DNA from: a virus
DNA: 28,526 bases
Strand: one strand, 5' to 3'
IMG/VR virus record: IMGVR_UViG_3300009507_000087
Coordinates: 1 to 28,526 of that record
Part shown: in pieces, positions 1,497 to 28,521 of the stretch
Numbering within the stretch: position 1 is the stretch's first letter
Layout of the letters: each line of letters starts with the position of its first letter
Translations under genes and position numbers: made by a program
The notes under the pieces: generated by a model
The model's database searches: none
What the model was told of the DNA's origin: nothing
The model's input: the letters and a program-made list of their open reading frames with translations, nothing else

Positions 1497-2279
1497 ATGA
1501 TTAAACTACAAGAACTAGTCGGCGTACCATCTTTAAAGTATCATTTAGACAATGGTCTCTCTTTACATGAGAATGTCTACCGTTATTCTTCTGACGCTTT
1601 TATACAATTGTTCACTGAAGCTAGAACAGCTCTTAGAGACGGTAAAATTAAACTTAACGAAGAAGATAGTTACCTAATAGAAAATACTGATATAGGAGAA
1701 TACGGAGAATACAATGGTATGAAAGTACCTTTAGACCTTCCTATGATTTCTTCTGGTAAAGATCCTTTATTTGAAATTGGTTCCTTAATTGATGAAATGT
1801 TAGAGAACGAAGACTTATTAGATGAAGGTGCAGGCATAGACGAGATGATAGACTACGAACTAGTAAAAGAACTAGTTGAATCTATGGGTGCTACAATTAA
1901 TATGGAAACATTTAGAAAAGCAGTAAAGCTAAATGAAGATTTAGATTACTCTGGTTTCGATATGCTAAAAGCCTCAGTAGACTATATATCAGAAGCAGAA
2001 TACAAAGGAAAAAAAGTAGCTCTAAATAAACCTAAGCGTGGTGGCTCTAAAAAGTTCTACGTTTATGTAAAGAGTAAAAAAGGAAACGTTAAGAAGGTAT
2101 CTTTTGGTGATACTGGATTATCAGTTAAATTGAAACAAAGAGGAGCAAGAGCATCATTTGCAGCTCGTCATAAATGTTCAACTAAAAAAGATAAAACAAA
2201 AGCAGGTTACTGGTCTTGTAATATAGGCCGTTACTGGAAATCATTAGGCGGTGGATCAAACTTCTCAGGTTACTGGTAG
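1497..2279 (+). CDS. Putative structural/internal protein with basic Cys-containing C-terminal domain
   Basis: A 260-aa two-part protein. Residues 1-165 are acidic and helical with repeated Glu/Asp blocks (LIDEMLENEDLLDEG). Residues ~170-260 are strongly basic: KKVALNKPKRGGSKKFYVYVKSKKGNVKKVSFGD, then RARASFAARHKCS, KDKTKAGYWSC and an aromatic Gly-rich end. That C-terminal block (FYVYVK..GNVKKVSFGD…RHKC…YWSC) resembles a small domain I recall as common in phage structural and prohead proteins (DUF5872-like), but I cannot confirm the family. The N-terminus MIKLQELVG is a weak version of the leader seen on other genes here. The last 29 nt overlap the next gene. A packaged, DNA-contacting precursor that is processed between its acidic and basic halves is possible; this is inference. 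Confidence 0.6.
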   Translation: MIKLQELVGVPSLKYHLDNGLSLHENVYRYSSDAFIQLFTEARTALRDGKIKLNEEDSYLIENTDIGEYGEYNGMKVPLDLPMISSGKDPLFEIGSLIDEMLENEDLLDEGAGIDEMIDYELVKELVESMGATINMETFRKAVKLNEDLDYSGFDMLKASVDYISEAEYKGKKVALNKPKRGGSKKFYVYVKSKKGNVKKVSFGDTGLSVKLKQRGARASFAARHKCSTKKDKTKAGYWSCNIGRYWKSLGGGSNFSGYW

Positions 2280-2568
2280 ACCATATTCCGAAATAGAAGA
2301 GAATGGTTATAAGATAAGGGAGTTTTCTCAAGACACTTCCTCATTTGAATTTGTATGGCATAGAGACAAAGAAGATAGAATTGTTGAAGCTATAGGAAAA
2401 ACAGATTGGAAATTTCAATTAGATAACGAGGTTCCTAAAGAAATAAATCGTATCTTTATACCTAAAGAGACATACCATCGACTTATTAAAGGGTCTGGTA
2501 ATTTAAAAGTTAAAATTAAAGAAGTTATAGGTATTGAAAACATTCGTAATAACACTGAGTCAAAATAA
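2251..2568 (+). CDS. Small cupin-like protein
   Basis: A 105-aa protein. The only workable start upstream of the conserved-looking part is GTG at 2251, giving a 29-nt overlap with the preceding gene; a shorter product from another non-ATG codon is possible. Visible features are FEFVWHRDKEDR, W-K-F-Q-L-D-N-E, and IPKETYHRLIKGSGNLKVKIKEV. This His-containing turn followed by a strand is like a small cupin beta barrel (compare W-H-x-D…IP-x-x-x-x-H-R). A metal-binding or carbohydrate-related role would suit the sugar genes that follow, but no enzyme activity can be assigned. The 3' end overlaps the glycosyltransferase gene by 35 nt, with that gene using a TTG start, so translation is probably coupled. 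Confidence 0.5.
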   Translation: MDQTSQVTGRPYSEIEENGYKIREFSQDTSSFEFVWHRDKEDRIVEAIGKTDWKFQLDNEVPKEINRIFIPKETYHRLIKGSGNLKVKIKEVIGIENIRNNTESK

Positions 2569-27874: not shown

Positions 27875-28453
27875 ATGGCACAACTATTAGTAGACGTAAC
27901 ACCGTTTAGACCGGTACTTAAGGAATCAAAAACTAAGCCGGGAGTATATGAGGTAGAAGGAGTAATGCAAAGAGCAGTTGCTAAAAATCAAAATGGACGT
28001 ACATATAGTAAGGACATTTTATTAAGAGAATCAGAAAGATACATTAAAGAGTTTGTTAAGCAAGGTAATGCTTATGGAGAACTTGATCACCCTGAGTCTC
28101 CCGTTGTCTCTCTAAAGAACGCCTCTCATATAGTAAAAGAGTTATGGTGGAAAGGAGACGACCTTATGGGACGTGTAGAGCTACTTAATACACCTTCTGG
28201 TAATATCGTAAAAGAGATTGCTAGAGCAGGACATACAATAGGTATCTCATCTAGAGGTACAGGATCAGTTCAACAAACTAACGAAGGTACTTTAGAAGTA
28301 CAAGACGATTTTGAATTAGTATGTTGGGACTTCGTATCCAATCCATCCACACACGGTGCATTTATGAACCCAGTATCTTTATCAGAAGGTAAAATTAAAG
28401 TTTCTAAATATAGCAATTTAGATATTATTATAAACGATATATTAAGAGCATAA
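27875..28453 (+). CDS. 21: Prohead maturation protease, T4 gp21-like (S77 family)
   Basis: A 192-aa serine protease of the herpes-like prohead-protease group. It starts AQLLVDVTPFRPVLKES. NQNGRTYSKDILLRE is the usual second conserved block. G-E-L-D-H72-P provides the catalytic His, and T-I-G-I-S125-S126-R-G the nucleophilic Ser region. FELVCWDFVSNPSTHGAFM is the conserved C-terminal block. In T4 this enzyme digests the core, trims capsid proteins and removes the targeting peptide of internal proteins after hydrophobic-x-Glu. Its presence gives the processing enzyme for the leaders seen across this window. Length is close to T4 gp21 (212 aa). It begins 1 nt after the preceding stop. Confidence 0.95.
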   Translation: MAQLLVDVTPFRPVLKESKTKPGVYEVEGVMQRAVAKNQNGRTYSKDILLRESERYIKEFVKQGNAYGELDHPESPVVSLKNASHIVKELWWKGDDLMGRVELLNTPSGNIVKEIARAGHTIGISSRGTGSVQQTNEGTLEVQDDFELVCWDFVSNPSTHGAFMNPVSLSEGKIKVSKYSNLDIIINDILRA

Positions 28454-28455
28454 AA

Positions 28456-28521
28456 ATGAAATGTAATTGTAAAACCTGTAACTGTGGTACTTCATGTAAT
28501 TGTACATGTTGTGACTGTTAA
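28456..28521 (+). CDS. 21-aa Cys-rich, metallothionein-like mini-ORF
   Basis: ATG at 28456 and TAA at 28519-28521, two bases after the protease stop. Nine of the 21 residues are Cys, at positions 3, 5, 8, 10, 14, 16, 18, 19 and 21. C-N-C occurs three times, with C-T-C and an adjacent C-C near the end; other residues are Lys, Asn, Thr, Gly, Ser, Asp. Dense C-x-C spacing without aromatic residues is the hallmark of metallothioneins and other metal-thiolate peptides. No Shine-Dalgarno is visible, but few genes here have one, and the position gives translational coupling to the protease. It could also be a remnant or chance frame. Function, if any, might be Zn/Cu binding in the cell or prohead. 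Confidence 0.5.
   Translation: MKCNCKTCNCGTSCNCTCCDC

Follow-up and report, generated by a model that had tools for sequence, protein, structure and literature searches.

The fungal copper metallothioneins of the Neurospora/Agaricus type are about 25 amino acids long, with CxC repeats, a CxCG-x2-CxC stretch and seven Cys, and the prokaryotic metallothionein SmtA carries near its start a CxC-x2-CxC motif that is also present in the phage peptide described here. The beta domain of animal metallothioneins contains nine Cys, with which it binds metal as Zn3 and Cu6 species (PMC9846682), and bacterial metallothioneins bind Zn tightly and buffer it (PMC10612145). The window, by which we mean the entire 28,526-nucleotide stretch of viral DNA that was analysed, a record of IMG/VR, encodes a peptide of 21 residues with nine Cys. 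It resembles the vertebrate beta domain in its nine Cys on a short, CxC-rich chain without aromatic residues, for which an M(II)3Cys9 stoichiometry may be expected by analogy (PMC9846682), but its Cys are spaced differently, it stands alone, and homology is not detectable. The SmtA/BmtA proteins (Pfam Metallothio_Pro; PMC10612145) share the prokaryotic setting and the richness in Cys, but are larger, include a zinc-finger-like part and use His. The best similarity in the PDB, to wheat Ec-1 (PDB 2kak), is non-significant (E = 2.6); this plant protein has a CxCG-x2-CxC-type stretch but is multi-domain. The fungal copper metallothioneins match the phage peptide in size, CxC repeats and the CxCG-x2-CxC stretch, whereas they have seven Cys instead of nine, are eukaryotic and have no shown homology to it. 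This likeness is probably convergent.

The features of the window that matter for the analysis are as follows.

2251..2568, + strand: small gene whose homologue is the direct upstream neighbour of the mini-gene in 39 other contigs (neighbour clustering)
27875..28453, + strand: T4 gp21-type prohead core protease (Peptidase_S77), upstream of the mini-gene (Pfam, PHROG)
28451..28458, + strand: junction of the gene 21 stop TAA, a 2-nt spacer AA and the ATG of the mini-gene
28456..28521, + strand: nine-Cys metallothionein-like mini-gene, 21 aa, MKCNCKTCNCGTSCNCTCCDC (ORF listing, conserved family)

The sequence-only reading had described nine Cys in 21 codons with three C-N-C units, placed two bases behind the stop of the prohead protease, and the ORF bears this out. 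It runs from an ATG to a TAA, and the gap to the protease, which ends at 28453, is 2 nt. The protease was identified as Pfam PF03420 Peptidase_S77 (E = 5.4e-34) and as PHROG 207, head maturation protease (E = 4.2e-51). The window contains 113 ATG ORFs of 18-40 aa, and the other 112 have at most four Cys. In 200 first-order Markov windows, which yielded 31,606 simulated ORFs of that size, the maximum was six, so a nine-Cys ORF is not a product of chance. We found no terminator-like site near the mini-ORF and no unusual RNA folding on its strand (z = -0.74). An RNA element in place of a gene was ruled out, given the ordinary fold and the synonymous changes at Cys codons described below.

A scan of the viral collection with the pattern C[ND]C..C[ND]CG..C[ND]C.CC[ND]C, in which start and stop were both left unspecified, matched 53 viral contigs. 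All 53 have a Met one to three residues before the motif and a stop zero to two residues after it. An unrestricted Cys pattern returns mostly Cys-repeat noise from GC-rich or repetitive DNA, so we used restricted patterns. Wider scans gave at least 106 distinct peptides, or at least 117 with the loci found through neighbouring genes. The true order of Cys gave at least 119 matches in the viral collection, vs none when the Cys spacing of the same pattern was reversed. The consensus, about 21 residues long, is M-x-C-[ND]-C-x2-C-x-C-G-x-S-C-x-C-x-C-C-[ND]-C, with the Cys spacing CxC-x2-CxC-x3-CxC-x-CC-x-C. A longer form, MRNRQNCNCENCKCQKACNCMKCNCSKSCDCACCDC, occurs on the reverse strand of one contig (L271, match at 798-854), where a further Cys-rich half stands in front of the usual nine-Cys unit. 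A blastn search with the mini-gene DNA returned chance matches only, and tblastn of the peptide against cultured phages gave no match, probably owing to the low-complexity filter. Flavobacterium phage immuto, a cultured relative, lacks the mini-gene, and the single place in it with three mismatches does not read as a family member.

In full-pattern scans the conservation of Cys is given by construction, and only two samples are free of this bias. The first came from a half-pattern, M-K-C-[ND]-C-x2-C-[ND]-C, which specifies only the first four Cys. It recovered 54 distinct sequences, one of them cut off at a contig end. Nine Cys in 21-23 residues were found in 52 of the 53 complete sequences, and both TGT and TGC are used at each of the five Cys codons outside the half-pattern. 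The remaining sequence, MKCDCKECNCGTTCEHTCCNC (in L399 and L400), has a His for Cys at residue 16, the sole Cys replacement in the sample; this variant retains a metal ligand. The second sample was fetched by neighbouring genes with a filter blind to Cys spacing (at least five Cys, at least 25% Cys, up to 60 aa). Cys-rich mini-ORFs were present at 20 of 72 loci of a FAD oxidoreductase gene and directly behind the small 2251-2568-type gene at 9 of 79 loci. All 29 have nine Cys, with the spacing altered in one (L520). Cys positions are therefore conserved in the family, the exceptions being the Cys-to-His variant and the nine-Cys variant with altered spacing.

On a tree of 130 core DNAs, the Cys codons underwent 139 synonymous and no nonsynonymous changes (the zero being by construction in the scans), vs 126 synonymous and 293 nonsynonymous inferred changes at non-Cys codons. 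Gly is kept in 111 and Ser in 109 of the 130. Likewise, the window peptide MKCNCKTCNCGTSCNCTCCDC differs from its homologue MKCNCEVCNCGTSCDCTCCNC (L041, the same contig as L122) at non-Cys codons only. Cys codons thus change only synonymously apart from the one Cys-to-His, and the free change of Cys codons that would have spoken against a gene is clearly not seen. Strong purifying selection acts on the nine Cys, and the mini-ORF is a real, conserved coding gene.

The metallothionein-like composition noted for the window extends to the whole family. The at least 117 distinct peptides are 20-23 aa long with nine Cys (43%), arranged as three CxC units and one CCxC, and so combine the small size, high Cys content (about 20-30% or more) and CxC/CC motifs of metallothioneins. 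Their 2,470 residues include no F, W or Y, His occurs in one peptide, and net charge is near zero across the family. Profile searches placed the peptide in none of the described families. Among 23 diverse members, Pfam at E ≤ 10 gave nothing except Metallothio_2 in one (E = 6.4), without a match to the SmtA/BmtA prokaryotic metallothionein profile. None of the 23 matched a PHROG profile at E ≤ 10, NCBIfam had no match, and a family profile found no relative in the PDB. We found no papers on phage or viral metallothioneins; the small-phage-gene catalogue of Fremin 2022 could hold the family as an unlabelled cluster. None of the protein libraries or papers searched thus contains a phage metallothionein family. 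By sequence the peptide falls outside every family tested; by function class it would be a metallothionein.

The sequence-only reading had placed the mini-gene in a late head operon and suggested that it might buffer Zn/Cu during infection or in the capsid. The genomic contexts do not support a specific link to the head operon or capsid, and the position behind gene 21, which that reading had proposed to compare among relatives, is not conserved. Only one of 80 gene-21 relatives, the L041/L122 contig, has a mini-ORF directly after gene 21, as in the window. In L001-L003, whose protease is 99% identical to that of the window and whose DNA is 92% identical in the final 1.2 kb that end at the gene 21 stop, no mini-gene follows; there the TAA of gene 21 runs into the ATG of the next gene as TAATG. 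The mini-gene is missing altogether from seven records of gene-21 relatives, the 156-kb record of L003 among them. Elsewhere, it lies directly behind a homologue of the small 2251-2568 gene in 39 contigs and often overlaps it by 4 or 11 nt (in the window itself the gene that follows this small gene is a different one, not the mini-gene). In 49 contigs a FAD oxidoreductase gene lies downstream, typically 115-126 nt after the mini-gene, and in at least 24 contigs the mini-gene sits between two further genes. The distance to the gene upstream is often -4 or 1-2 nt, as would fit a gene translated within an operon, and the larger viral records searched hold a single copy where the gene is present. 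With such varied sites, and near-identical relatives that do without it, no tie to the head or capsid is supported. Rather than a fixed head gene, the mini-gene is a single-copy accessory gene whose site varies, and its absence from most close relatives suggests that its benefit is conditional.

In six gene-21 contigs (L007, L009, L011-L014), a different conserved element, ATTCCCTCGGACGCTACCGAAGGCAGGTGT, directly follows the gene 21 stop; behind it comes a terminator-like hairpin that has a T run. No Rfam match to this type of element was found in L007 and L011.

The distribution points to phages. A scan of 84,980 prokaryotic species genomes, with a pattern requiring Gly at core position 9, returned 71 stretches, of which 70 are Cys-repeat noise. 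The single family match (L160, CAJQMN010000095.1) is on a contig binned into a Flavobacteriaceae MAG. Its T4-like phage genes match those of the mini-gene phages, FAD gene included, so it is most likely phage DNA, and the family appears essentially phage-only. The nearest cultured phage is Flavobacterium phage immuto, with a protease 77% identical to that of the window. Shine-Dalgarno-like motifs precede only 9 of 172 start sites, and start sites without such motifs are usual in Bacteroidota. On both grounds the host is probably a marine flavobacterium, and carriers of the mini-gene are probably T4-like phages infecting marine Flavobacteriia.

We assign a probability of roughly 0.7 to the reading that the mini-gene, an accessory gene of the moron type, encodes a phage-specific minimal metallothionein-like peptide whose main task is to buffer metal in the infected cell, with thiol redox as a secondary one. 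A metal-thiolate buffer is favoured by the metallothionein composition and motifs, by the number of thiolates, which is that of a beta domain, and by the Cys-to-His variant, which retains a metal ligand. The nine-Cys layout is found in more than 100 phage sequences and in almost no cellular ones, so viruses appear to carry a metallothionein-like peptide of their own. We infer that the peptide is translated in the cell, binds metal at the stoichiometry given below and acts as a buffer. The metal-free form would be unfolded, and the nine thiolates would wrap a small cluster of about three Zn(II)/Cd(II) or about six Cu(I), as in the nine-Cys beta domain; by this analogy, each peptide probably holds one M(II)3Cys9-type cluster. 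Candidate advantages are the shielding of phage enzymes from excess Cu/Zn, the holding of zinc that host proteins release, or the blunting of oxidative stress.

The strongest rival is a specific metal-linked effector that strips or delivers metal, or binds one host or phage protein such as a host metalloenzyme or a defence protein. The phage-only distribution, accessory presence and varied position of the mini-gene are typical of host-interaction genes, and some non-Cys positions also show preferences. However, the non-Cys positions vary widely, as the 293 nonsynonymous changes indicate, so no conserved partner-binding surface is apparent, and we regard this role as unlikely. The other alternatives are less well supported.

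It is more doubtful still that the ORF is a Cys-codon leader, whose translation would mainly serve to gauge the supply of charged Cys-tRNA and to attenuate the downstream gene, while the peptide itself had no function. The ORF is very short and Cys-rich, and many copies lie about 115-126 nt before the FAD oxidoreductase gene, with a hairpin and a terminator-like element between. However, the genes that follow the mini-ORF are of many kinds, and it lies at many different distances from them or overlaps them, rather than keeping one place ahead of a single type of regulated gene; its start often falls within the end of the gene upstream. At 36 of the 72 FAD loci the hairpin element precedes the FAD gene with no mini-ORF nearby, and sensing of Cys codons would leave unexplained the fixed Cys spacing, the Gly in 111/130 and Ser in 109/130, and the lack of aromatics.

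The element upstream of the FAD oxidoreductase gene is conserved and about 115 nt long (for example in L090, L104, L119, L160 and L208, loci outside the window), and lies behind the mini-ORF when one is present. Its hairpin has an invariant loop, ATTCATAGC, on a covarying stem of 4-6 bp (GACTG/CAGTC, GACAG/CTGTC, GTCCG/CGGAC, GCTCG/CGAGC and GGATAG/CTATCC). An invariant CTGTGGC within a terminator-like hairpin follows, and then a TATATT promoter-like motif. The element has no match in Rfam. We considered it as part of the mini-gene and rejected this, since it accompanies the FAD gene even at loci that lack a mini-ORF. The oxidoreductase itself, about 430-480 aa long, is encoded at 6484-7932 of L397 (in mini-ORF orientation) and in 48 related contigs, and is weakly related (about 25-29%) to an 'NAD(FAD)-utilizing dehydrogenase' of Campylobacter phages.

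A thiol redox buffer, or a carrier of Fe-S or another cofactor rather than of Zn/Cu, would suit nine thiols in 21 residues and the frequent FAD oxidoreductase neighbour. Against this, 52 of 72 FAD loci have no nearby mini-gene, the mini-gene also occurs without an adjoining FAD gene, and the Cys-to-His change is easier to reconcile with a metal ligand than with thiol redox chemistry, so we consider such a role very improbable. Least probable is a small Zn-thiolate component of the virion or head assembly, acting together with the gp21 protease or within the capsid, for although the mini-gene directly follows gene 21 in the window and L122, it does so in only one of 80 gene-21 relatives and lies elsewhere in most contigs.

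The mini-gene is too short for most gene callers and has no profile in Pfam, NCBIfam or PHROGs. As the peptide is small enough for synthesis and metal loading, the metal-binding claim is directly testable, and the family offers a natural minimal nine-thiolate peptide in more than 100 variants for metal-selectivity studies. Somewhat more tentatively than for the peptide itself, we think it fairly likely that the T4-like phages infecting marine Bacteroidota carry a mobile auxiliary gene for a 21-residue, virus-only metallothionein, and that this peptide controls how much metal is available in the infected cell. If true, metal buffering would join the functions that phages bring into marine bacteria.
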